64,000 nucleotides of DNA from Ruminiclostridium cellulolyticum H10. Lineage in GTDB: Bacteria > Bacillota > Clostridia > Acetivibrionales > DSM-1351. Below the pieces are notes generated by a model. That model saw only the letters and a list, made by a program, of their open reading frames with translations, ran no database searches and was not told the DNA's origin. The stretch is from assembly GCF_000022065.1 (NCBI RefSeq), contig NC_011898.1, forward strand, positions 1,510,001 to 1,574,000, written 5' to 3'. Shown one piece after another: positions 46,245 through 61,034 of this stretch (positions are counted from its first letter, which is position 1; every line of letters starts with the position of its first letter). The position numbers were made by a program, and so were the translations under genes.

Positions 46245-46318
46245 ATCAAATGTAATATTGAAGGGATGTAAAATATTATTTTTTAGAAATATTTCAGGTG
46301 TTAAGGAGAGTGAACGAG

Positions 46319-47797
46319 ATGGTAAAAATGATTTTAAATGCAGATATAAAAAAAGGAAAGATAAATAAAAACATATACGGGCATTTTTCGGAGCATCTGG
46401 GTAGATGTATATATGAGGGGTTGTGGGTTGGCGAAGACTCAGAAATACCTAATATAAACGGATTTCGCACAGACGTTGTCGAAGCCCTCAAAAAGATGAA
46501 GATACCTGTGTTAAGATGGCCGGGCGGATGCTTTGCAGATGAATATCACTGGGTAGACGGAATAGGACCTAAAGAAAACAGACCTTGCATGGTTAACACC
46601 CATTGGGGCGGAGTCGTAGAAAATAACCATTTTGGAACTCATGAATTTCTGGAACTTTGCGAAATGCTTGGTGCAGAACCATATATATGCGGTAATGTTG
46701 GAAGCGGCACAGTACATGAAATGCAGCAGTGGGTTGAATACATGACCTTTGACGGAAAATCTCCAATGGCTGATTTAAGAAGGGCAAACGGCAAGGAGGA
46801 ACCATGGAGGGTTAAGTATTTCGGCGTTGGTAACGAAAACTGGGGCTGCGGCGGAAACATGACTGCTGAGTTCTACGCAGATCAATATAAAAGGTATGCA
46901 ACATATGTAAGAAACTTCGGCGATAACAAGATATACAAAATAGCCGGAGGTGCTTCGGTAGATGACTATCACTGGACCGAGGTGCTTATGAGAGAAGCAG
47001 GAAAGCAAATGGACGGTCTCAGTGTCCATTATTATACAAGAATCTCAAAGGACTGGTCTGAGCAGGGGTCTGCAACTGAATTTGATGAAAATCATTGGTT
47101 TTCTGTAATGCAGAATGCTTTGTTTACGGAAGAGTTGGTGGTACGTCATTCAAACATTATGGATAAGTATGATCCTGAGAAAAAAGTAGGTATGATTGTT
47201 GATGAATGGGGTACATGGTTTGCTGTTGAACCCGGAACAAATCCGGGATTCCTGTACCAGCAAAATACAATGAGGGATGCCCTTGTTGCAGGAATCCACC
47301 TGAATATCTTCAATAACCACTGCGACAGGGTTCAGATGGCAAACATAGCACAAATGGTAAATGTCCTTCAGGCAGTAATTCTAACTGAGGGTAAAAAGAT
47401 GCTTCTAACGCCCACCTACCATGTATTTGATATGTACAAGGTACATCAGGGTGCGGAGTTGCTTTCTCTTGACTTTGAAAGTCCGGAGTATGCCTATAAC
47501 GGTGAAAAGGTACCTCAGCTGAGTGCTTCTTCTTCTGTTGACAGCGAAGGAAAAATTCATGTAACCATTTGCAACCTTAACCCATCAGCAGATGTTAATA
47601 TTGATATTGACCTGCGAGGAGTAAAGTCTAAGAGTAGCACAGGTAAAATAATTACCTCCAATGCCATGAATGCAAAAAACACATTTGAAGAAACAACTAA
47701 TGTAACTATAAAGAATTTTGAAGATATCAACCTTGAAAATAACCATATATCAGGAAAAATACCTTCTAAATCAGTTGTATTGCTTGAAATTGTATAA
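46319..47797 (+). CDS. Cytoplasmic GH51 alpha-L-arabinofuranosidase
   Basis: A 492-residue enzyme without signal peptide. It has a GH51 TIM barrel followed by a C-terminal sandwich. Motifs: [25 protein letters not shown] with acid/base Glu173, and IVDEWGTWF with nucleophile Glu296. It should remove arabinofuranosyl side groups from imported arabinoxylo-oligosaccharides. The ATG at 46319 lies eight bases after AAGGAGAG; an upstream GTG at 46298 precedes that site and is rejected. It is the first of the intracellular enzyme genes after the importer. Confidence 0.95.
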
Positions 47798-48207: not shown

Positions 48208-49710
48208 ATGAAAATTCAGAACCCCATTATATGGGCGGATATGCCGGACCCGGACATTATACGTGTAGGTGATATATATTATATGGTATCTACAACCATG
48301 TTTGTAATGCCAGGAGCTCCAATTTTAAAATCAAAGGATTTATATCATTGGGAACTTGTTTCATATGTTTTCAATACTATTGAGGATAATGACATATATC
48401 AGCTGAAAAATGGCAAAACAGCATATGGAAAGGGTCAATGGGCAACCAGTTTGAGATTTTTCAACGGCCTTTACTATGCTTGTTTTGTATGCCATGATAT
48501 GCAAAAGACATATATTTATTATACGGATGATATAGAAAAAAGCGGTTGGGAACGTTATGTGATCAATAATGTTTTCCATGATATGTCGTTTTTGTTTGAT
48601 AATAACAGGTCATATTTGATATATGGCAACGGGGACATTAAAATAGTTGAACTAAAAGATGATTTATCAGGAATAAAAGATGGAGGGGTCAACCAACTCC
48701 TGTTCAGTACTCCCTCTGAAAATATAATGCTCCGTTGTGAGGGCTGCAGAGCCTACAAAATTAATGGCTACTATTATTTGTTATTCATTGAATGGCCTAA
48801 TGACGGTAACAGCAGAAGGCGTGTTGTGTGTTACAGGTCAAAGGATTTACTTGGAGAGTACGATAGAAAAATACTCCTTGATGATGATATGGAGTATCAG
48901 AATCAGGGAATTGCTCAGGGGGCTATAATTGATACACCTGAAGGAGAATGGTATTCAATTTTGTTTCAGGATCATGGGGCGGTAGGCAGAATTCCTTATT
49001 TACTTCCTGTTTCATGGGAAGATGACTGGCCTAATTTGGGAGTTAATGAAAAGGTGCCGGAAAGTTTTGAGATTCCTTTTGAGGCCTACGATACCAAACC
49101 ATTAATAGTAAGTGATAGCTTTAATCATAACGAAAATAAGCTGGATTTAAGGTGGCAATGGAATCACAATCCTGAGGAGGATTGTTGGTCATTTACAGAA
49201 CATCCGGGCTATTTGAGACTGCGTACGCAATCCTTGGCCACTGATATTTTGACCGCCAGGAATACATTAACTCAAAGGACAAGCGGTCCTCAATGTGCAT
49301 TTTCAGTGGAGCTTAAAACTGAGGGAATGAAAGCAGGGGACTATGCCGGACTTGTTGCGTTACAGGGTAATTATGGGGCCATAGGAATAAGAGCCGACGA
49401 GAATAATTTGAAAAGAATTATTGTTTCTAAAAAAGGCAGCGACGGAAGACAAATAGAAGAAGAATACAGGCTGTTTGCAGACAGTAGAATATTAATAAAA
49501 ATTGAATTCGATTTCCGAAACAGCAGTGATATTGCAAAATTTTATTATTCCCAGGATGGTATCGGATGGATAAAATTGGGCAGTGATTTGCATATGACAT
49601 ATACCCTTGACCTTTTTATAGGCTATCGTATCGGTATATTCTATTATTCTCAGAAGGCAGCCGGAGGGTTTGCTGATTTCAGAAATTTTTCATATGAATC
49701 ACGACAATGA
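48208..49710 (+). CDS. Cytoplasmic GH43 glycosidase with C-terminal beta-sandwich
   Basis: A 500-residue enzyme without signal peptide, CBM or dockerin. A GH43 propeller (about 1-290; base Asp in MPDPDII near residue 14) is followed by a concanavalin-like sandwich (about 300-500). The layout matches the catalytic part of the secreted protein at 2213-4453, so it looks like its cytoplasmic counterpart. The substrate should be imported arabinoxylo-oligosaccharides. The literature on the R. cellulolyticum system describes two arabinofuranosidases, and with GH51 this protein would be the second. Its TGA overlaps an ATG of the next frame. Confidence 0.92.
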   Translation: MKIQNPIIWADMPDPDIIRVGDIYYMVSTTMFVMPGAPILKSKDLYHWELVSYVFNTIEDNDIYQLKNGKTAYGKGQWATSLRFFNGLYYACFVCHDMQKTYIYYTDDIEKSGWERYVINNVFHDMSFLFDNNRSYLIYGNGDIKIVELKDDLSGIKDGGVNQLLFSTPSENIMLRCEGCRAYKINGYYYLLFIEWPNDGNSRRRVVCYRSKDLLGEYDRKILLDDDMEYQNQGIAQGAIIDTPEGEWYSILFQDHGAVGRIPYLLPVSWEDDWPNLGVNEKVPESFEIPFEAYDTKPLIVSDSFNHNENKLDLRWQWNHNPEEDCWSFTEHPGYLRLRTQSLATDILTARNTLTQRTSGPQCAFSVELKTEGMKAGDYAGLVALQGNYGAIGIRADENNLKRIIVSKKGSDGRQIEEEYRLFADSRILIKIEFDFRNSSDIAKFYYSQDGIGWIKLGSDLHMTYTLDLFIGYRIGIFYYSQKAAGGFADFRNFSYESRQ

Positions 49711-49727
49711 ACAAAAGGAGAGTAATT

Positions 49728-50858
49728 ATGTCAAAAGGAGCTTATTTTACAAAACAGTACCCTAATTTATTTGCCGAACTGGGTATTTCTGACGAACAAA
49801 TTAATAAAAAGGTTAATGACACTTTTAACACTATGTTCTTCGATCCCGAGGAGAAAATTTATTTTGAAATAGGTAAAGACATGGGATATATGATGGATAC
49901 AGGTAATAATGATGCACGTACAGAGGGTATGAGCTATGGGATGATGATGACTCTGCAAATGGATCGGAAAGACATTTTTGACCGCTTGTGGTTATTTTCC
50001 AAAACATATATGTATCAAAACGAGGGAAAGTATCAGGGCTATTTTGCATGGTCGGTATCTACCGACGGAAAGAAAAATGCCGAAGGGCCTGCACCTGACG
50101 GAGAAGAGTATTTCGCTATGGCTCTTTTCTTTGCAGGCAAAAGATGGGGTGACGGTAAGCCGCCCTTTGACTATAGTATTCAAGCCAGGGATATTTTAAA
50201 ACATTGTATACACCAGTCGGAGATTGTTGAAGGTGGAGAACCTATGTGGGATAGTACCAACCATTATATAAAATTTGTTCCTGAAACGCCTTTCTCTGAT
50301 CCGTCTTACCATCTGCCCCATTTCTATGAGCTTTTTGCGCTTCTGGCTAATGAAGAGGATAAAGACTTCTGGAAAAAAGCTGCTGAGGCAAGTCGTAATT
50401 ACCTGCATATTTCATGCGACAGGGACACTGGGATGGCATCGGAATATGCTGAATTTGACGGTACTCCCAAAAAGCTGTTCCGTGATTTTCAGTTTTATTC
50501 TGATTCATACCGCGTTGCAATGAATATAGGATTGGATGCGGCGTGGTTCAGTAAGGACGAGTCATTAGGGGATATCGTTGACAAGCTTCAGTCCTTCTTT
50601 AGTGAAAATACGGTGTTAGGCGAATATAAGGCCTATACTGTTAAAGGTGAGCCTTTTGATGCTCCTGCCATGCACCCCGTTGCAATTATCGCTACAAATG
50701 CCGCCGGTTCACTTGCTGCTAAAGGGAAATACAGAGATCAGTGGGTAAAGGATTTCTGGGAGCTTCCATTAAGAAAAGGAGTTCATAGGTATTATGATAA
50801 CTGTCTGTACTTTTTCAGTTTACTGATGCTGGCAGGAAAATATAAAATTTACATCTAA
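49728..50858 (+). CDS. Cytoplasmic GH8 reducing-end xylose-releasing exo-oligoxylanase
   Basis: A 376-residue enzyme without signal peptide. It has a GH8 alpha/alpha barrel with DARTEGMSYGMM (acid Glu66), FAWSVSTDG and a late EYAEFDG. The sequence resembles the Rex type, which removes single xyloses from the reducing end of xylo-oligosaccharides (EC 3.2.1.156). It complements the GH39 enzyme encoded next, which works from the non-reducing end. The start is the ATG at 49728 behind AAAGGAGAG; an ATG at 49707 overlapping the previous stop is less likely. Confidence 0.93.
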   Translation: MSKGAYFTKQYPNLFAELGISDEQINKKVNDTFNTMFFDPEEKIYFEIGKDMGYMMDTGNNDARTEGMSYGMMMTLQMDRKDIFDRLWLFSKTYMYQNEGKYQGYFAWSVSTDGKKNAEGPAPDGEEYFAMALFFAGKRWGDGKPPFDYSIQARDILKHCIHQSEIVEGGEPMWDSTNHYIKFVPETPFSDPSYHLPHFYELFALLANEEDKDFWKKAAEASRNYLHISCDRDTGMASEYAEFDGTPKKLFRDFQFYSDSYRVAMNIGLDAAWFSKDESLGDIVDKLQSFFSENTVLGEYKAYTVKGEPFDAPAMHPVAIIATNAAGSLAAKGKYRDQWVKDFWELPLRKGVHRYYDNCLYFFSLLMLAGKYKIYI

Positions 50859-50924: not shown

Positions 50925-52430
50925 ATGAACAAAATAAAGATTTCAGATAAGGTTACAGGAAGTTTCAGGGATAATTGGAATTTCTGTGTAGGTACAGAGC
51001 GTATGGGGATCGCTCTTCAAAAGGAATACCAGGATACTCTCGAGTTTGTTCAGAAGGCAATAAATTTCAAATATATACGAGGACATGGTCTTTTTCATGA
51101 TGACACTGCCATCTACAGGGAATATGAAATAGACGGAGAAATGAAACCTTTTTATAACTTTACATACATAGACAGGATTTTTGACTCATTCCTTGAAAAG
51201 GGTCTCAAGCCTTTTGTAGAGCTGGGATTTATGCCGTCACAACTTGCATCGGGAGGACAGACTGTATTTTATTGGAAAGGGAATGTCACTCCTCCAAAGG
51301 ATTATGACAAGTGGAAAAATCTCATTCAAGCTTTGATAAAACACTTTATAAGTAGATATGGTATAGAGGAGGTTCTCCAGTGGCCTTTTGAGGTCTGGAA
51401 CGAGCCAAATTTGAAGGTATTCTGGAAGGATGCCGATGAGTCCGAATACTTTAAGCTTTATAAGGTGTCGGCAACAGCTATTAAGGAAATCAATAAGGAT
51501 TTACAGGTAGGGGGCCCTGCTATATGCGGAGGTGCCGACTACTGGATAAAGGATTTTTTGGAGTTCTGCAAAAGAGAAAATGTTCCTGTAGATTTTGTTT
51601 CCCGCCATTTATATTCTGCACATATGCCAAAACTTCAGACACATGAATTTTGTTATCAGGATTTGAAAGAACCTGAGGAAATGCTTAAAGAATTACAGAC
51701 AGTCAGGCAAATGATTGACAATTCACCATTTCCACACCTGCCATTTCACATAACAGAATACAACACCTCATACAATCCATTAAACCCTGTTCATGATACA
51801 TGTCTCAATGCTGCGTATCTGGCACGGATTATAAGTGAAGCCGGGGATATTGTGGATTCATTTTCATACTGGACCTTCAGTGATGTATTTGAAGAGGCAG
51901 ATGTTCCAAGAGCTCAGTTTCACGGAGGGTTTGGCCTTGTTGCCCTTAACAATATTCCAAAACCTACTTTTCATATGTTCAGCTTTTTTGAACAAATGGG
52001 TAAGGATATATTGTACAGAGATGAAAATATGCTGGCAACAAGAAAAGCTGACGGTACAGTGACAATAACCGCTTGGAACCCTGTAATGGAGAAAGGTGAC
52101 CATTTTAATATGGATTTCTCACTGGAACTGAATCTGCCAAAAGGAGAATACTTCATCAATCGGACTATTGTAAATGAAACTCATGGTAATCCATGGAGAA
52201 CTTGGATACAAATGGGGAGGCCTAGATTCCCGGGTAAGAAGCAGGTTGAAATATTAAGAAATGCTGCACGCCCCATGGTAATCTCCGAAAGGGTAAGCTG
52301 TACCGATGAAATATTGCTTCTTGAGTTTACACAAAGTAAAAACGAGGTATCTTTTATTGAAATCATTCCTGTAGCAGATGAGACTAACACTTACTATAAA
52401 CTTGATGACAGTTTGATTCCCGGGTATTAA
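50925..52430 (+). CDS. Cytoplasmic GH39 beta-xylosidase
   Basis: A 501-residue enzyme without signal peptide. The GH39 barrel has VWNEPN with acid/base Glu160 and [10 protein letters not shown] with nucleophile Glu278, positions nearly the same as in the well studied Thermoanaerobacterium enzyme. A C-terminal sandwich follows. It removes xylose from the non-reducing end of imported xylo-oligosaccharides. The ATG follows an AGGGGG site. Confidence 0.94.
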
Positions 52431-52477: not shown

Positions 52478-53275
52478 ATGGCAATTTTTCAAGCGAATTT
52501 TTTTGCTAAAACGATGAAAAGATCGATATGTTTTAATGCTTTGATACCAAATGATAAATATCAGGCACCTGATCAGGAGATTAAAGACGAACCAAAAGGG
52601 CCTATGAAATCCATTTATCTACTGCATGGCTATTCCGGCAATCATACGGATTGGTTGACATGGACTAAAATACAGGAGCTGTCTCTAAAATATAATATTG
52701 CGGTATTTATGCCTTCCGGTGAAAATTTCTTTTATGTGGATGACGAAGAGGTTGGAGCATATTATGGAGAATTAATCGGAAATGAGCTGGTTGACTATAC
52801 ACGCAGCACATTCCATTTATCTGATAAAAGAGAGGATACTTTTATAGGTGGATTATCCATGGGTGGTTACGGTGCAATAAGAAACGGTTTAAAATACTCT
52901 GAAAGATTCGGCCGTATAATTGCACTGTCCTCAGCACTTATTACCAATCAGATTGCCGGAATTACCCCTGATTTCAAGGGCCCTGTTGCAGACTATCCTT
53001 ATTACAGAAGAGTATTTGGAGATCTTGACCGGCTTTTGGGAGGTGACAAAGACCCTGAGGCACTAATCCGTAGCCTTAAGGAAAAAAATGCAGACATACC
53101 TAAGATATATATGGCTTGCGGAACAGAAGATTTTCTTATAAATGAAAATAGAGAGCTCCATGAATTCCTTGTTTCAGAAAAAGTAGAGCATACGTATATT
53201 GAAGACAGCGGTGTTCACGATTGGAAATTCTGGAACGAGTATATAGACAAGGGACTTGCTTGGGCTACTGAATGA
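52478..53275 (+). CDS. Cytoplasmic CE1-like esterase
   Basis: A 265-residue alpha/beta-hydrolase without signal peptide. It shows the oxyanion segment LHGYSGN, nucleophile elbow GGLSMGG (Ser127), a GTEDFL Asp region and SGVHDWKFW with the catalytic His. It resembles EstA/tributyrin-type acyl esterases. Together with the CE20-like protein downstream it should deacetylate imported xylan fragments, although feruloyl removal is also possible. A strong AAAGGAGA precedes the ATG. The next gene begins 52 bases after its stop. Confidence 0.88.
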   Translation: MAIFQANFFAKTMKRSICFNALIPNDKYQAPDQEIKDEPKGPMKSIYLLHGYSGNHTDWLTWTKIQELSLKYNIAVFMPSGENFFYVDDEEVGAYYGELIGNELVDYTRSTFHLSDKREDTFIGGLSMGGYGAIRNGLKYSERFGRIIALSSALITNQIAGITPDFKGPVADYPYYRRVFGDLDRLLGGDKDPEALIRSLKEKNADIPKIYMACGTEDFLINENRELHEFLVSEKVEHTYIEDSGVHDWKFWNEYIDKGLAWATE

Positions 53276-53327
53276 GGATGAAAATAACAATACCGAAGAT
53301 TACTTAAATACCAGAGGAGGAATTCCC

Positions 53328-55526
53328 ATGAAGCTGATATGCGGCGACTACACACTTATATTTAAAGATGGCGGTCTGGAGGTTCAAAAAACCGGTAGGA
53401 CCATATATTTCAACAAACGTCCCATGTTTGTGACTATTAAGACAGCAATGGCGATTAACGAATTTTATAATAAGGCCTACAGCGAGGTAAATATTTTCGG
53501 TAATAGTATTATTGCAAAGGGTATACTGACCGCACCCTCAGGATCAGAATTTTCCTTTTCAGATGTATATGAAGCGGGAGACTCTGGTTTCAAGGTCAGC
53601 AGGAATGTAAAGGTGCTGAAGGCTGGGGATGACCTTGGCTTTTCAACCAAAATATCCTTCACGATGGCTGAATCAAATGATACACATGATTATAACTGCT
53701 TTGCACCGGGAGTATGGTACAGACAGAACCAATTTGCACCGGATTTTGCATTTGGAAAGGATCTGGATTGCGAATACTTCTGGCAAATGGAAACACGCTA
53801 TGCTTTGCCTCTATTTGCCATGCAAAATATAGCGTCCGGTGAAACAGCGGCTATATCTCGGTGGGCATCGGATGTAACAATGCGGTCTTTGGATATTATG
53901 CAATCAGAAAATAATCTCGATGCCAAATTTACAATAGGTTCAATTGGTATGAGCAGACCGCAAAATAAGACCATGAACTATATGTATTACGGATTTGAGG
54001 TACGAAAGGAAATCGAAACAAGAACCGACGGGCTCTCAATTGATTATGTTTATCCCGGCTGTGACGGACAGATGCCCGGAGTAAACCACTATGGAGGTCT
54101 TGACTACAACGGCAGAGTAAAAACCTTTCAACGTATTAATCACCCTGTAGAACCGGGCTTTGAGCAGAATTACTCCGTTGCAGTGAATTTTGGAAACTAT
54201 GACAGCTATCAGCTTATGATGAGAGATATCTGGAGAGTGACTTATGACAGATTAAGAGACAAATTATTCGATGTGGACAATGAACTCTTTTTCCATAACT
54301 GTATGAATATACTTGACAGGTATACAAGGCAGTACGGTGATTCTTACGGACTCCCATTTGCCTGCCAGCTTCCCCATATGGATATAAATTGTGTATCCTT
54401 TCAATTCGGTTTTGTAGGGCAACAGCCGGGAATCGGCTATCAGCTTCTGAGGTACGGAGATAAGGAAAACATCCCGGAAACCTTTGAAAAAGGTGTAAAT
54501 ATCATTGATTTCTGGGTCAGGACGGCCATGACAGAATCAGGCTTACCCAATATGTGCTACAATCCCGGCATAAGTACTTTTGAACCGTATCCCCATTATA
54601 TAAGAATGCTTGCAGATGGTATTGAGGCCATTCTGGATGCATACATCTATATGAAAAAGAAGGGGGACGAGCGGCCTAAATGGAGAGAATTCTGTCAGAA
54701 AACAGCTGATTGGCTTATTAGTAATCAAAATGAGGACGGCAGCTTTTACCGAGCATACAATACCGATGGCTCTGTAAGGATGAAATCCAAGTCAAATACT
54801 CCAAGCGTAATACGTTTTCTGGTTCAGTTCTACCTTGTGACAGGTGACGAAAGGTATAAAAATGCAGCCATAAAGGCTGGAGACTGGTCTTATGAAAATG
54901 CTTACCTGAACATGGAGTACAGAGGCGGTACATGCGACAATACCGATATACAGGACAAGGAAGCAGGCATTTATGCAATGTTTGGCTTTCTGGCTCTCTA
55001 TGATTTGACTGAAGAAAAGAAATGGCTTGAGGGTGCCGTAGGTGCTGCTGACTACACTGAGACTTGGACCTATGCATGGAAATTCCCTGTACGTGCTCCA
55101 ATGGAGAAGCATCCCTTCAATAGGTATTCCATCAGCGGTCAGAGTATTATAACAATCGGTGGTGCAGCAGATGTATATATGGCCGCTTGCTCGTACACAT
55201 ACTACAGATTGTACGTTATAACCGGGGATGAACATTATCTGGATTTTGCCGAGTTCATTCACAAAAATACCAGACAATCCAGCGATATAGACGGAAGTAT
55301 TGGTTATATAATGCCGGGGTTGGGCCATGAAAGCGGAGACTTTACGAGGCAAACTTTACAAAGCCAGTACCATTGGCTTCCATGGTGTACTTTTGTGGAG
55401 GTCGACCCATCATCCAGACTTTACGATACCTTTGGGGGATATGAGATTGCTGATGCACAAAAACTCAGTTCAGAGGAACGCATTCGGAAAAACCGAATAT
55501 ACGCTAATTATGTTGATAGTTTATAA
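53328..55526 (+). CDS. Unclassified cytoplasmic alpha/alpha-barrel protein, putative glycoside hydrolase
   Basis: A 732-residue protein with no signal peptide, CBM or dockerin, which I cannot place in a CAZy family. About 1-290 is beta-rich and resembles the N-terminal sandwich of many alpha/alpha-barrel glycosidases. About 300-700 has the repeated helical pattern and Gly/Trp-rich turns of a six-hairpin toroid (ADWLISNQNEDGSFYRAY, FYLVTGDERYKNAAIKAGDW, AGIYAMFGFLALYDLT). Conserved-looking acid residues occur in TCDNTDIQDKEAG and MPGLGHESGDF. It lies between two esterases in the oligosaccharide operon, so a remaining xylan decoration such as glucuronic acid is a plausible target, but this is inference. 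Start: ATG at 53328 seven bases after AGAGGAGG. An upstream TTG overlapping the CE1 gene is rejected. Confidence 0.8.
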   Translation: MKLICGDYTLIFKDGGLEVQKTGRTIYFNKRPMFVTIKTAMAINEFYNKAYSEVNIFGNSIIAKGILTAPSGSEFSFSDVYEAGDSGFKVSRNVKVLKAGDDLGFSTKISFTMAESNDTHDYNCFAPGVWYRQNQFAPDFAFGKDLDCEYFWQMETRYALPLFAMQNIASGETAAISRWASDVTMRSLDIMQSENNLDAKFTIGSIGMSRPQNKTMNYMYYGFEVRKEIETRTDGLSIDYVYPGCDGQMPGVNHYGGLDYNGRVKTFQRINHPVEPGFEQNYSVAVNFGNYDSYQLMMRDIWRVTYDRLRDKLFDVDNELFFHNCMNILDRYTRQYGDSYGLPFACQLPHMDINCVSFQFGFVGQQPGIGYQLLRYGDKENIPETFEKGVNIIDFWVRTAMTESGLPNMCYNPGISTFEPYPHYIRMLADGIEAILDAYIYMKKKGDERPKWREFCQKTADWLISNQNEDGSFYRAYNTDGSVRMKSKSNTPSVIRFLVQFYLVTGDERYKNAAIKAGDWSYENAYLNMEYRGGTCDNTDIQDKEAGIYAMFGFLALYDLTEEKKWLEGAVGAADYTETWTYAWKFPVRAPMEKHPFNRYSISGQSIITIGGAADVYMAACSYTYYRLYVITGDEHYLDFAEFIHKNTRQSSDIDGSIGYIMPGLGHESGDFTRQTLQSQYHWLPWCTFVEVDPSSRLYDTFGGYEIADAQKLSSEERIRKNRIYANYVDSL

Positions 55527-55564
55527 ATATAGTAATTAATACTGTTTTGAAAGTGGGAATTATA

Positions 55565-57460
55565 TTGAATTCTAATCGCCCTAAAATAAGATTACCCAGG
55601 ATTATAAGCGACGGCATGGTATTACAAAGAAACACAGACGTAAAGATTTGGGGTTGGGCATCACCGGGTGAAGCCGTTACTGTCCGCTTTATAGGCAAAG
55701 CCTATCATGCTTTCGCAGATGATAGCGGAGAGTGGTTTGTAAGACTTGAACAAGCGAAAGCAGGCGGGCCGTATGATATGTATATTGAAACGGAAGAGTC
55801 CCTTGAAAAGATAACCATAAAGAATATTCTTATGGGCGATGTCTGGTTGTGCTCCGGGCAATCAAACATGGAAATGAAAATGGATTCAGTGAAGGACACC
55901 TACCCTGATGAAATCGTGCACTCTTGTAATGATTATATAAGACATTTTCTTGTTCCTGTGAAATACGACTTCGAAAAACCTCAAACTGATTTGGAAGCAG
56001 GAATCTGGGAGGCAGCCAATCCTGAAAGTATATTGGATTTTACAGCTACAGGTTATTTCTTTGCCTTAAAGCTGTTTGAAAAATATAACATTCCTATTGG
56101 TCTGATTAATGCCAGCCTAGGAGGCTCACCAGCAGAAGCATGGCTCAGTGAAAATGCATTAAGGGAGTTCCCTGAACATTATGAATCAGCAAAACAACTC
56201 AGCAACCGGGATTATCTGGATAAAGTGCTCAGGGAAGATCAAGAGTCCGCAGAAGCATGGTACACAGCGTTAAACCAAAACGATGAGGGATTAAAAAGCA
56301 ATGATATACCATTCCATGATACAGAATATGATGCCCCCTTCTGGCAGAACATAAAAGTACCTTCATATTGGGAAGACGAGGGTGTGGGAAACTTCAACGG
56401 TGTCGTCTGGTTCAGGAAGGAAATCGATATTCCCAGCACTCTTGCAGATAAACCTGCAAGACTTGTACTTGGAAATATTGTTGATGAAGATACTGCCTAT
56501 ATCAATGGTATAGAGGTTGGAACAACGCCAAACCAGTATATTACGAGAAAATACAGTATACAGGAAGGCTTGCTCAAGGAAGGTAAAAACACTATTGTGC
56601 TCAGAGTAGTAAATACCGCGGGTAAAGGGGGATTTTACAAAGATAAGCCCTACCAACTGGAAATAGGGGATAACATCATTGAGTTAAGCGGTGAATGGCA
56701 GTATATGATTGGTGCAAAAAGTAGTCCAATGCCTGCTCCTGCCTTCGTACAGTGGAGACCGTTAGGTTTGTACAACGGAATGATTGCCCCGGTTACCAGT
56801 TACTCAATCAAAGGTTTCATATGGTATCAGGGGGAATCCAATACCAAAAATCCGGGAGAATATGAAAATCTTCTGAAAGCACTGATTGCAGACTGGAGAC
56901 AGAAATGGAATATGGGAAATCTGCCGTTTTTGTATGTTCAGCTGCCAAACTTTATGGAGGCCTCGGAAATACCTATGGAAAGCAGCTGGGCGGAGTTGAG
57001 GGAAGCTCAGCGAAGGACACTTTCTGTACCTTGTACGGGAATGGCTGTTGCAATTGATTTGGGTGAATGGAACGATATTCATCCTGTAAATAAAAAGGAT
57101 GTGGGATTTCGCTTGGCACTTGCTGCCATGAAAACTGCATATAGGGACAAAACGATTGTTGCATACGGGCCAATGTATCAGTCTGGCAAAATCGACGGAA
57201 ACAGAATAATTCTATCCTTCACTGATACGGGAAGCGGGTTGACTGTTAAAAACGGAGACCGTCCGGAAGCTTTTGCTATAGCAGGAGCAGATAGGACATT
57301 TGTCAGGGCTGATGCCGAGATAATAGGTGACAGCGTAGCAGTGTGGAGTGAAAAGGTTTCTCACCCTGTTTATGTAAAGTATGCATGGGCTGATAATCCG
57401 GCGGATGCCAACCTCTATAACCTTGAAGGCTTGCCGGCTTCACCTTTTACAACGGAGTAG
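55565..57460 (+). CDS. Cytoplasmic SGNH acetylesterase, CE20-like
   Basis: A roughly 631-residue esterase without signal peptide. SGNH blocks are CSGQSNMEM (nucleophile Ser near 100), INASLGGSPAEAW (Gly), WYQGESNTKNPGEY (Asn) and NDIHPVNK (Asp-His). A GH2-like jelly-roll domain (about 255-380, with VPSYWEDEGVGNFNGVVWFR) is inserted within the esterase fold, the layout of CE20 acetylesterases. It should remove acetyl groups from imported xylan oligosaccharides. The start is uncertain: TTG at 55565 behind GTGGGA fits best, with GTG at 55553 and TTG at 55547 also in frame. It is the last gene of the oligosaccharide operon. Confidence 0.87.
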   Translation: MNSNRPKIRLPRIISDGMVLQRNTDVKIWGWASPGEAVTVRFIGKAYHAFADDSGEWFVRLEQAKAGGPYDMYIETEESLEKITIKNILMGDVWLCSGQSNMEMKMDSVKDTYPDEIVHSCNDYIRHFLVPVKYDFEKPQTDLEAGIWEAANPESILDFTATGYFFALKLFEKYNIPIGLINASLGGSPAEAWLSENALREFPEHYESAKQLSNRDYLDKVLREDQESAEAWYTALNQNDEGLKSNDIPFHDTEYDAPFWQNIKVPSYWEDEGVGNFNGVVWFRKEIDIPSTLADKPARLVLGNIVDEDTAYINGIEVGTTPNQYITRKYSIQEGLLKEGKNTIVLRVVNTAGKGGFYKDKPYQLEIGDNIIELSGEWQYMIGAKSSPMPAPAFVQWRPLGLYNGMIAPVTSYSIKGFIWYQGESNTKNPGEYENLLKALIADWRQKWNMGNLPFLYVQLPNFMEASEIPMESSWAELREAQRRTLSVPCTGMAVAIDLGEWNDIHPVNKKDVGFRLALAAMKTAYRDKTIVAYGPMYQSGKIDGNRIILSFTDTGSGLTVKNGDRPEAFAIAGADRTFVRADAEIIGDSVAVWSEKVSHPVYVKYAWADNPADANLYNLEGLPASPFTTE

Positions 57461-57635: not shown

Positions 57636-58325
57636 ATGCCAATTAAGAAGGTTACACGTCAAAGTGTAAGCGAACAGGTCTTTGAGCAATTAAAGGAGCA
57701 GATTTTGAGTAATGAGTGGAAGAAAGGAGAAAAGATCCCTTCTGAAAATGAATTGGCCGCATTACTGGGAGTAAGTCGTGTTACGGTACGGAATGCACTA
57801 CAGAAACTGATATCCTTAGGATTGATAGAGACCAGGTTTGGGGAAGGCTCATTTATCACCGATGCCCTACCTGGAATCAGTATGAATTCTTTAATACCAA
57901 TCGCTTATTTAAAAGAGAACTCACTGCAGGAGATTTTAGAATACCGCAGGGTACTGGAAGGCAATGTAGCTGAACTTGCCACAAAGAAGGCTTCTGCCGA
58001 AGACGTGGCAAAGCTTGAGGAGGCATATTTGGCCATGGAAAAGGTTAAGGATGATCTAGAACAGTTCTCCAAGGCAGATTTAAATTTTCATTTGCTCCTT
58101 GCAAATATAACTAAAAATTCTCTTATAATTCAAACCTTTTATATATTTAGTGATGTTTTAAACCGGGCATTTTCTCAAATTGTTACAAAAAGGGGTAACA
58201 GTGCGGGAATCTATTATCACAAATTGTTGTTTGAAGCCGTTAAAGGTAGTAATTCTCTTGATGCAAAAAGAATAATGGATGAACATATGGAGGACTTGTA
58301 CAATACTTTTCAAACTAATATATAA
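57636..58325 (+). CDS. GntR family transcriptional regulator, FadR/FCD type
   Basis: A 229-residue regulator. The N-terminal winged helix (about 1-75) has IPSENELAALLGVSRVTVRNAL. The C-terminal all-helical FCD domain (about 90-225) has EILEYRRVLEGNVAELA and the metal/ligand-binding pattern with DLNFHLLLA and a late His. FCD regulators commonly sense sugar acids or keto acids. It is followed by a dehydratase and an aldolase of sugar-acid metabolism, so their substrate or intermediate is the likely inducer. A perfect palindrome lies in its own promoter. Confidence 0.92.
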   Translation: MPIKKVTRQSVSEQVFEQLKEQILSNEWKKGEKIPSENELAALLGVSRVTVRNALQKLISLGLIETRFGEGSFITDALPGISMNSLIPIAYLKENSLQEILEYRRVLEGNVAELATKKASAEDVAKLEEAYLAMEKVKDDLEQFSKADLNFHLLLANITKNSLIIQTFYIFSDVLNRAFSQIVTKRGNSAGIYYHKLLFEAVKGSNSLDAKRIMDEHMEDLYNTFQTNI

Positions 58326-58391
58326 GCAACAAAATACTTTAGTATGCCGAACGGATAGTTTGTCCGGCACAACGGAGTTATGGAGGTTAAT

Positions 58392-60119
58392 ATGGCTAAT
58401 GTAAAGCAAAAAAGTTCATCAGAGAGACTGCTCTGGGCACAGTTCGATGCACTCCAACTGGGTTCCGGCTGGGACGAGGAGGATATTATTAAACCTCAGA
58501 TATTAATTGAAGATGCATTCGGAGACAGCCATCCGGGAAGCACTCATCTGAATCAGTTGACAGAACAGGCAAGAATTGGTGTTTTCGAGGCCGGAGGCTG
58601 TCCTGCAAGATTTCATACGACTGACATTTGTGATGGGTGTGCACAGGGACACAAGGGCATGAATTATGTTCTGGCATCCCGCGAGGCTATTTGTGATATG
58701 GTTGAAGTGCATGGAAGTATGGTTTCATGGGATGGGTTGATTTTATCCTCGTCCTGTGACAAGTCTATTCCCGCTCACTTAAAGGCAGCTGCAAGGCTTA
58801 ATATACCGGCAATTTTTATACCGGGGGGCAGTATGAGACCCGGCCCCAATATGACTACTTCATTGCTTGCAGGAGATATCTCCCTCCGTCAAAAACGAAA
58901 GGGAGAAATAAGCCGACGGGAGATTCGTGACTACAAGCTGACAGGCTGCCCGTCTGTAGGAGCATGTACTTTTCTGGGAACCGCCAGCACTATGCAGTGT
59001 ATGGCTGAGGCTCTTGGAATGGCATTGCCGGGAAGTGCATTGGTTCCTGCAACCATGAGGGACATTCTGTCTTATGCAAGAGAGGCAGGCAGGAAAATCA
59101 TTGAGCTGGCTGAAAAAGGTATAACGCCGGACAAAATCATGACAAAGGAGGCATTTGTAAACGCAGTCATTGTACATAGTGCAATCGGTGGTTCTACCAA
59201 TGCGACACTGCATTTACCTGACATTGCAAGGGAGCTCAATATTACATTGACACCTGAAATGTTCGATGAAATAAACCATAGGATTCCGCATATAGGCAAT
59301 ATCTTCCCAAGTGGAGAGCACCTTACCGAATCATTCTGGTTTGCAGGTGGAATACCAATAATGCAATTAATGCTTAAAGAATATCTGAATCTGGATGTAA
59401 TGACTGTAACAGGAAAGACCCTGGGAGAAAACCTGAAAGCTTTGGAAAAGGATAGCTTCTTCAACAGAAATATCGGTTATCTTTCTAATTATGGTTTGAA
59501 GAGGGAAGATGTTATTACTCCTTTGAATGAAATCAAGGAAAAAGGTTCCATTGCTGTCTTAAAAGGAAATATCGCACCCGATGGGTCCATAGTAAAGTAT
59601 TCGGCCTGTACGGAAAGTATGCGTAAACACAAGGGCATTGCCAGAGTATACAATAGCGAAGAAGATGCCTATAGTGCAGTGGTCAATAATGAAATCAATC
59701 CCGGCGAAATAATAGTAATCCGCTATGAGGGCCCAAGAGGCAGCGGAATGCCTGAAATGTTGATGACGACAGAAGCCATCGTGTGCGACAAACGGCTGAA
59801 CGGCACTGTTTCTCTGGTGACAGACGGCAGGTTTTCAGGGGCCACACGCGGAGCGGCAATAGGACATGTTTCGCCGGAGGCAGCTGCAGGAGGCCCTTTG
59901 AGCCTTGTTGAAACCGGAGATATTATAGAGTATGACATTGAGAACAGGAGTCTCAACGTTGTAGGTATAAACCAAAAGGAAGTGCCTTTGGAAGAGGTTC
60001 AGAGAATCTTTGCACAACGTGAAAAGAATAAGAAAGTAGTACTGCCTCCTGTAAGAAAAGGTTTACTAAAAAGATATACCGAATCCGCCCTTTCTGCTAT
60101 GGAAGGTGCAGGCTATTAA
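58392..60119 (+). CDS. IlvD/Edd-family sugar-acid dehydratase
   Basis: A 575-residue iron-sulfur dehydratase. Cysteines for the cluster lie in [16 protein letters not shown] and [13 protein letters not shown], the three conserved positions of the IlvD/Edd family. Other motifs are [14 protein letters not shown] and [15 protein letters not shown]. The family includes dihydroxyacid, 6-phosphogluconate and aldonic acid (xylonate, arabinonate, gluconate) dehydratases. Pairing with a YagE-like aldolase and a GntR-type regulator points to an aldonic acid, giving a 2-keto-3-deoxy acid. Start: ATG at 58392 behind GGAGG; an ATG at 58380 runs through that site. Confidence 0.87.
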
Positions 60120-60140
60120 TAAAAAAAAGGAGATACAAAG

Positions 60141-61034
60141 ATGAAATGTGAATACATTACCCCAGCTGTTACTATATTTGATGAAAATAGAAAGCTTGAT
60201 ATTGAGTCGCTCCATAATCTGTATGATCATCTGATAAAGGGTGGGGTTGACGGTATTTTGATTTTGGGAAGCATAGGAGAGTTTTTTGCAATTCCAATAG
60301 AAAGTAAAAAGGAACTGATTCGTTTGGCTGTTAAAAAAATCAGCAGGAGAACAAAACTGCTGGTTGGAACTGCAAGCATGGATATAAACGAGACTATAGA
60401 ACTTTCAAAATATGCATGTGAACAGGGTGTTGACGGCATAGTGGTAATTTCACCGTATTATTTCGGATTGAGCCAGCAAAGCGTTGAGGAGTATTACGAC
60501 AAGGTAGCCGATGAATGCCCCGGTGATCTTTATCTCTATAGTTTCCCCGATCGTACAGGGTATGACATTTCTCCAAACGTGACGTTGAATCTTTTGCGAA
60601 AACACAAAAATATTGTGGGATACAAGGATACTATCCCAGGGATGGATCATACAAGGGAATTGATAAAATTAATCAAGCCGGAGTTCCCGGATTTTAAAAT
60701 CTACTCGGGATTTGATGACAACTTTGCTCATAATGTAATGTCAGGAGGGGACGGTTGTATTGGCGGATTGTCAAATCTTGTTCCTGAGGCTTGCAGTGCA
60801 TGGGTAAAGGCTTTCAAAGACAATGACCTTAAAATGATTTCAGATATTCAAAGGAAGATAGACTGTCTTATGGACATTTATCAGGTAGGAAAGCCTTTTG
60901 TTCCTTATATTAAAAGAGCACTGATGCTTAAAGGTATCTCTGTAAAGGATTATTGTTCATTTCCCCTGCCAATGGCAAATGAACAGGAGATTTTAAAATT
61001 AAAAGCCATTATGGAAAAATCAGGTTTAATCTAA
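60141..61034 (+). CDS. 2-keto-3-deoxy sugar-acid aldolase, DHDPS/YagE-like
   Basis: A 297-residue TIM-barrel class I aldolase. The Schiff-base Lys162 lies in VGYKDT, the catalytic Tyr in LYSFPDRTG, and a GSIGEF segment replaces the usual GTTGE. It resembles E. coli YagE/YjhH, which split 2-keto-3-deoxy-gluconate or pentonate into pyruvate and an aldehyde. With the dehydratase 21 bases upstream it would form the core of a non-phosphorylative (Dahms-type) route. No aldose dehydrogenase or lactonase is encoded here, so the acid must be made or imported by other means. An AAAGGAGA precedes the ATG and a terminator follows. Confidence 0.9.
   Translation: MKCEYITPAVTIFDENRKLDIESLHNLYDHLIKGGVDGILILGSIGEFFAIPIESKKELIRLAVKKISRRTKLLVGTASMDINETIELSKYACEQGVDGIVVISPYYFGLSQQSVEEYYDKVADECPGDLYLYSFPDRTGYDISPNVTLNLLRKHKNIVGYKDTIPGMDHTRELIKLIKPEFPDFKIYSGFDDNFAHNVMSGGDGCIGGLSNLVPEACSAWVKAFKDNDLKMISDIQRKIDCLMDIYQVGKPFVPYIKRALMLKGISVKDYCSFPLPMANEQEILKLKAIMEKSGLI

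Follow-up and report, generated by a model that had tools for sequence, protein, structure and literature searches.

Here we analyse a 64,000-nucleotide stretch of Ruminiclostridium cellulolyticum H10 DNA (positions 1510001-1574000 of a single-contig genome of 4.07 Mb), called the window in its whole length, and present evidence on xuaI, whose product is the sole large protein without a function in the well-studied arabinoxylan import operon of this model cellulose degrader. Gene order and families match those reported in PMC9675976 and identify the region as the xua cluster, Ccel_1250-1262 (Table 1), and Pfam agrees with the GH8, GH39, GH51, GH43, CE1 and CE20-like neighbours listed in an earlier note on this DNA. 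Liu et al. 2022 (PMC9675976) place xuaI between xuaH and xuaJ and describe its product as cytosolic, of unknown function and without signal peptide; primer numbers in the same paper suggest Ccel_1261 as its locus tag. In 2024 XuaI was still given as of unknown function (PMC11127375). A search on the name XuaI found no function in print in the literature library used, and a search by the locus tags Ccel_1261, 1263, 1264 and 1265 found only Ccel_1263 named. To this already described gene we add a predicted fold, a conserved motif, relatives and their neighbourhoods. XuaI probably represents a new type of enzyme that trims sugars. More specifically, we judge the prospects about even that it works in the cytosol as an exo-glycosidase on decorated arabinoxylo-oligosaccharides (AXOS) and belongs to a six-hairpin family, so far unclassified, that combines a beta-sandwich with an (alpha/alpha)6 barrel.

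Table 1. Features of the xua region and of the genes behind it, with positions in the window
Feature	Positions	Strand	Basis
xuaI coding sequence, 732 aa	53328..55526	+	open reading frame; XuaI of 732 aa in PMC9675976
AGGAGG ribosome-binding site, 7 bases 5' of the ATG	53315..53320	+	sequence
N-terminal beta-sandwich domain (predicted), residues 1-290	53328..54197	+	secondary structure of the model
(alpha/alpha)6 barrel (predicted), residues 312-702	54261..55433	+	model, fold searches
Hallmark loop, residues 530-545, EYRGGTCDNTDIQDKE; D537, D543, K544, E545 invariant in 23 sequences; putative catalytic site	54915..54962	+	alignment
YHWLPWC, residues 681-687; Y681, H682, W683, L684, P685, W686, C687 all invariant	55368..55388	+	alignment
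xuaD, GH51 alpha-L-arabinofuranosidase	46298..47797	+	Pfam; PMC9675976
xuaE, GH43 arabinofuranosidase	48208..49710	+	Pfam; PMC9675976
xuaF, GH8 exo-xylanase	49707..50858	+	Pfam; PMC9675976
xuaG, GH39 exo-xylanase	50925..52430	+	Pfam; PMC9675976
xuaH, feruloyl/p-coumaroyl/acetyl esterase (PF00756, CE1-type)	52478..53275	+	Pfam; PMC11127375
xuaJ, CE20-type (SASA) acetyl esterase, next operon gene after xuaI	55547..57460	+	Pfam; PMC9675976
FadR-type GntR regulator (Ccel_1263), head of a probable sugar-acid module	57636..58325	+	Pfam; PMC9675976
IlvD/EDD-family dehydratase, putative aldonate dehydratase	58380..60119	+	profiles, solved relatives
DHDPS-family aldolase, nearest solved relative E. coli YagE (5.7e-58)	60141..61034	+	profiles, solved relatives

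The xuaI reading frame is intact, with 732 codons plus stop. A longer TTG-started frame is available from 53256; a methionine stands in the column of the ATG at 53328 in 20 of the 22 aligned relatives, the remaining two rows starting without one. The gene lies on a common transcript with other xua genes (PMC9675976), and overexpression of XuaSR raises it together with them (PMC11127375).

Relatives of XuaI are encoded at 26 of 32 pattern matches in genome contigs, corresponding to 25 loci with 45-94% identity, and are kept full length down to 45% identity. The alignment comprises the query and 22 of these loci, omitting L004 (near L003), L013 (partial) and L024 (broken). Mean column identity across the 23 sequences is 69%, and 74 columns holding D, E, H, K, R, Y, C, W, Q or N are invariant, among them the cysteines C536, C621 and C687. 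The conservation is far above chance. Full-length XuaI occurs in 7 of 11 genomes of the genus and, at 46-100% identity, in 8 of the 391 genomes of a class sample, 37 of which have matches at E 0.001 or better; in a phylum sample only the source genome itself matches at E 1e-50 (1/398). The families of G360 and G234 yield E 1e-80 matches in 1/13 and 8/250 genomes, respectively (matches in G957 and G847 are not among the loci analysed), and viral contigs contain no XuaI match. The broken relative (L024:10037-11326), from a metagenome-assembled genome (MAG), has an in-frame stop and missing stretches and is flanked by GH39 and GH51 genes.

Beyond these relatives, two remote sister families were found in Clostridia (L044-L046; L048, L050, L054, L065), whose profiles recover intact XuaI members with E-values of 1e-33 to 1e-18, calculated for the set of open reading frames searched; hhalign scores them against XuaI at 99.5% and 99.2%. 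They share with XuaI the barrel region, an FVGQ-type stretch and the loop pattern D537, D543-[KR]-E545, but do not keep D430 and D470 and are only 620-658 residues long. Among the five of their seven members that were scanned, none has a Pfam family of its own.

The predicted model of XuaI (predicted local distance difference test, pLDDT, 79.1; predicted template modelling score, pTM, 0.84) bears out the beta-sandwich and alpha/alpha-barrel described in the earlier note. The sandwich comes first, and the model contains no domain past residue ~720. In Foldseek, the best matches over its full length are all enzymes acting on carbohydrates: the PL27 lyase BACCELL_00875 (5nok, 3.7e-12), followed by a cellobiose phosphorylase (8ho8, 1.4e-9), GH116 (5npf, 2.2e-7) and PL26 (5xqo, 7.5e-7). 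By sequence, the best match in the PDB is LanC-like (0.0069).

As read from its sequence, XuaI is claimed by no known family, as the earlier note had proposed when calling it a good candidate for an undescribed activity. Two Pfam gathering scores of glycoside hydrolase (GH) families are passed, but since the matches are partial and the catalytic residues absent they do not amount to a confident assignment. The GH76 match (32.2 bits, cut-off 25.9) covers only positions 92-254 of the 366 in the profile, and hhalign against one GH76 sequence gives 1.4%. The GH76 catalytic site is an adjacent Asp-Asp pair, and PDB titles in this family name D136/D137 and D125 mutants; by eye no Asp-Asp pair is present in the XuaI barrel, where the invariant D430 is followed by an invariant G431, and the GH76 assignment was rejected. 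GH127 matches 29 XuaI residues at 1.5e-6 (hhalign 84.7% over 206 columns). This beta-L-arabinofuranosidase family resembles XuaI in its barrel but uses a zinc-bound cysteine nucleophile with a neighbouring cysteine and places its barrel first and its beta-sandwich behind. With no adjacent cysteine pair in XuaI by eye and the domain order reversed, the GH127 assignment was rejected as well. The GH88/GH105 family (PF07470) matches 3 of the 23 members, at best with 6.1e-6, and the query not at all; hhalign against GH105 gives 14.4%. Equating the GH105-like D143-G144 with D430-G431 is not supported: the two pairs do not fall together in the weak profile alignment, whose register differs, and the sister families do not keep D430. 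GH94 phosphorylases resemble XuaI in full-length fold, with no sequence link found, and a Pfam search of XuaI at E 1 returned neither GH67 nor GH115. Conserved acids, whose lack in a pocket the earlier note had held to speak against a glycosidase, are present: several are invariant and are candidate pocket residues, although the main candidate loop is modelled with a pLDDT below 50.

The genes around xuaI relatives offer a view of its likely substrates. We mapped 41 XuaI loci, or 40 once L075, which duplicates L001, is removed. The count lacks L081 and L083 because a longer antisense frame displaced XuaI there; a GH51 gene lies within 6 kb at L081 (60% identical), whereas no neighbour is labelled at L083 (49%). 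Labels stem from Pfam/NCBIfam scans of part of the neighbours and from BLAST to those, so that many genes are unlabelled. Within 6 kb, a labelled GH or esterase gene was found in 22 of the 27 unique loci of at least 60% identity, the window included. Partners in these 27 are GH51 (12 loci), esterases (11), GH43 (9), GH39 (7) and GH95 or GH29 (4). GH51 genes of a separate group, whose closest matches are exo-arabinofuranosidases of the intracellular type (1pz3), directly adjoin XuaI in L013, L024, L069, L070 and L071. The row in L002 reads GH27, GH51, BD-FAE esterase, a gene related to xylosidase 3vst (1.9e-32; GH120), XuaI and two GH43. GH29 genes lie near XuaI in L014 and L024, the former about equally close to a solved exo-alpha-L-galactosidase (4.8e-70) and an entry called alpha-L-fucosidase (5.6e-70). 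GH95 lies upstream of XuaI in L006 (at 60 bases) and L017 (with two opposite genes between). A GH95 alpha-L-galactosidase has been described (PMC4491172), and corn-fibre arabinoxylan is reported to bear side chains with such sugars, with enzymes named for the recalcitrant ones (PMC7176698). Thus, the neighbours of XuaI in its relatives point to complex arabinoxylan side chains.

Some further neighbours are recorded here as observations. Directly upstream of xuaI in L070 lies a 689-residue gene (L070:11143-13212, minus strand) with no Pfam match at 1e-5, whose start looks GH95/GH65N-like by eye. Relatives below 60% identity are accompanied by short-chain dehydrogenase/reductase (SDR) genes (L019, L021, L025), transketolase and aldo-keto reductase genes (L023, L025) or a long, distant GH51-like gene (L084, L086).

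The activity that we favour for XuaI would take place in the cytosol. XuaABC would import decorated AXOS, from which XuaI would remove one terminal or side-chain residue beyond the reach of the GH51, GH43, GH8 and GH39 enzymes, and the remaining Xua enzymes would then finish the trimmed oligosaccharide. The target would probably be complex arabinose side chains, feruloylated or extended by galactosyl or xylosyl residues. D537, D543 and E545, predicted at the mouth of an inner helix, may form the catalytic group, and we infer hydrolysis rather than phosphorolysis or elimination. Cleavage of a recalcitrant side chain by XuaI, if confirmed, would account for a step so far missing in how cereal bran and corn fibre are used, and XuaI would found a new carbohydrate-enzyme family.

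Several points weigh against an exo-glycosidase devoted to decorated AXOS. In the wild type, genes after xuaD show no clear induction by arabinoxylan, and xuaG-J go up in a xuaS mutant (PMC11127375), which together indicate a second control on xuaG-J. The published xua work reports that xuaI is not systematically part of xua clusters and that the AXOS tested are already cleared by XuaD-G. At five of the 27 closer loci no gene within 6 kb is labelled as GH or esterase, and below 60% identity such neighbours occur at only 2 of 13 loci, a contrast that is exaggerated since the labels were drawn mostly from closer relatives. The scarcity nevertheless indicates that the family may have several jobs and, judging by the other settings of these distant relatives, it probably has more than one substrate. 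The model is least reliable in the candidate catalytic loops (pLDDT below 50 at residues 533-541, 604-619 and 652-690), and a barrel-only model (pLDDT 74.6) renders them no sharper. Finally, the nearest folds to the barrel on its own are epimerases, not hydrolases.

A different substrate is suggested by the genes behind xuaJ. Window positions 57636-61034 probably encode a module for the catabolism of a pentonate (xylonate), adjacent to the arabinoxylan importer. XuaI might cut an aldonic acid (D-xylonate or a similar pentonate) off imported AXOS whose reducing end has been oxidised, by hydrolysis or phosphorolysis, and the adjoining dehydratase and aldolase would then consume the acid. YagE, the nearest solved relative of the aldolase, is a member of a D-xylonate operon (PMC13279387), and a fungal dehydrogenase makes aldonic acids of xylo-oligosaccharides (PMC9730589). 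The second-best full-length fold match of XuaI is, as noted, a cellobiose phosphorylase. The family of that enzyme, GH94, includes cellobionic acid phosphorylase. Close orthologues of both module enzymes occur in 5 of the 11 genus genomes, all five with full-length XuaI, although two XuaI genomes of the seven (G006, G007) lack the module and the nesting of five within seven has a probability of 0.045 among related genomes, uncorrected for kinship. The module directly precedes XuaI in R. cellobioparum and in a MAG, with gaps of 65 bases in L005, where the order is GH30-IlvD-aldolase and then XuaI, 512 in L003 and 517 in L004.

Cohnella has other genes in this position: XuaI is followed, after 80 bases in L008 and 246 in L007, by genes for an FAA_hydrolase-family protein, an alpha-ketoglutaric semialdehyde dehydrogenase (KGSADH; 840 bits in L007, cut-off 770) and a YjhG/YagF D-xylonate dehydratase (1117 bits in L008, cut-off 808). 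The first two were assigned by profile in L007 and the dehydratase in L008, the rest by BLAST. Ruminiclostridium and Cohnella thus likely keep different gene sets of one chemistry, that of pentonate, beside XuaI. The earlier note makes no mention of this link, and the available parts of the xua papers (PMC9675976, PMC11127375) do not show it either. In Cohnella cholangitidis (L007:14865-16848) the YjhG-like gene consists of two overlapping frames (290 and 438 residues) and may therefore be broken, while L008 has one intact 660-residue frame. As a further observation, at L068:5199-8746 genes for a split transketolase, a glucose-1-dehydrogenase-type SDR and a tartronate semialdehyde reductase run into a same-strand xuaI relative, a possible sugar-acid link.

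The sugar-acid assignment is itself qualified. The window dehydratase scores best, below cut-off, with dihydroxy-acid dehydratases, and the genome has a second IlvD-family dehydratase (G000:C1:348416, 43% alike), probably the biosynthetic one; for both reasons its role as an aldonate dehydratase is put forward as probable only. Its nearest solved structures are likewise dihydroxy-acid dehydratases (6ovt, 1.4e-103), against L-arabinonate dehydratase at 1.6e-75. The best NCBIfam model of the aldolase is dapA, also below cut-off. The module may instead work for the xua system as a whole or on free xylonate, and genes of this kind lie near XuaI in only 7 of the 27 loci of at least 60% identity (L068 contributing only the tartronate semialdehyde reductase) and in 0/13 below. 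We consider release of an aldonic acid by XuaI unlikely, and similarly doubt the broader proposal that XuaI founds an intracellular family releasing D-xylonate or another pentonate from oxidised AXOS ends, with linked IlvD/YagE or YjhG/FAA_hydrolase/KGSADH genes finishing the acid. If true, anaerobes could make use of fragments that fungi or other microbes have oxidised, and anaerobic fibre use would be tied to oxidative attack by other organisms.

The epimerase-like barrel raises the question whether XuaI descends from AGE-like enzymes and epimerises or isomerises the sugar at the reducing end of oligosaccharides. Against an AGE set composed of YihS from E. coli K-12 and 7 hand-chosen records out of 176 matched plasmid records, XuaI scores 8.3e-6 over 54 columns. 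Y681-H682 aligns with Y382-H383 of the AGE sequences, of which H383 is one of the two catalytic histidines of YihS, but the local alignment confidence is only 0.1-0.5% and the pairing has no statistical weight by itself. Unlike the AGE superfamily (cellobiose 2-epimerase, YihS), XuaI has an extra N-terminal beta-sandwich, which is not a known AGE trait. It also has no histidine at the position of the other catalytic one, YihS H248, an active-site mutant in the title of 7ag4, and does not keep N174, M175 and H176, invariant in the eight AGE sequences. A YRGG stretch considered as a sign of AGE homology is doubtful, being missing from the sister families, and hhalign in global mode gave no result for XuaI against AGE. 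Such an activity is, in our estimate, decidedly improbable.

The earlier note had seen no GH67 or GH115 gene and suggested that XuaI could fill this gap by removing (4-O-methyl-)glucuronic acid, as an alpha-glucuronidase or otherwise, or could act on another decoration. Whole-genome profile searches confirm the lack of both within the window but place a GH67 gene elsewhere in the source genome (G000:C1:158205, 543 bits, cut-off 23.5). GH67 is present in all 11 genus genomes searched, with or without XuaI, so that XuaI is not needed to explain glucuronate removal; GH115 is present in 6/11 and not in the source genome. The start of the GH67 reading frame, whose start codon is not settled, shows no signal peptide by eye, and the enzyme should thus be cytosolic as well. 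Among the neighbours scanned, a part of all neighbours, no uronate-catabolism family scores above cut-off, one neighbouring SDR scoring below it with some of them. The proposed gap therefore does not hold, and we regard this role as very unlikely. Least probable of all, and likewise very unlikely, is a PL27-like lyase cleaving beside uronic acid by beta-elimination: PL27 L-rhamnose-alpha-1,4-D-glucuronate lyase (5nok/5no8) is the best full-length fold match and has the same domain order (PMC8377490), but the two share 11% identity with a root-mean-square deviation of 13.7 over 796 columns, no sequence link was found, the source genome has no GH88/GH105 match (PF07470) for the unsaturated product, and no uronate genes lie among the scanned neighbours.

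The xua clusters of close relatives vary in composition. In three of them (L001/L075, L072, L073) the stretches examined have no GH8 xuaF between GH43 and GH39, and in L001/L075 and L073 a 601-residue GH43 gene precedes the GH51 gene. At G005:C1:1208263-1235565 (L073, L074), ~19 kb separates xuaI from xuaJ, and a second copy of the last 81 xuaI codons, 81% alike, stands shortly before xuaJ; the arrangement suggests an insertion accompanied by duplication of the 3' end. An independent XuaI remnant beside the dehydratase module was considered there and rejected, the copy reading as a duplicated 3' end at the inserted block.
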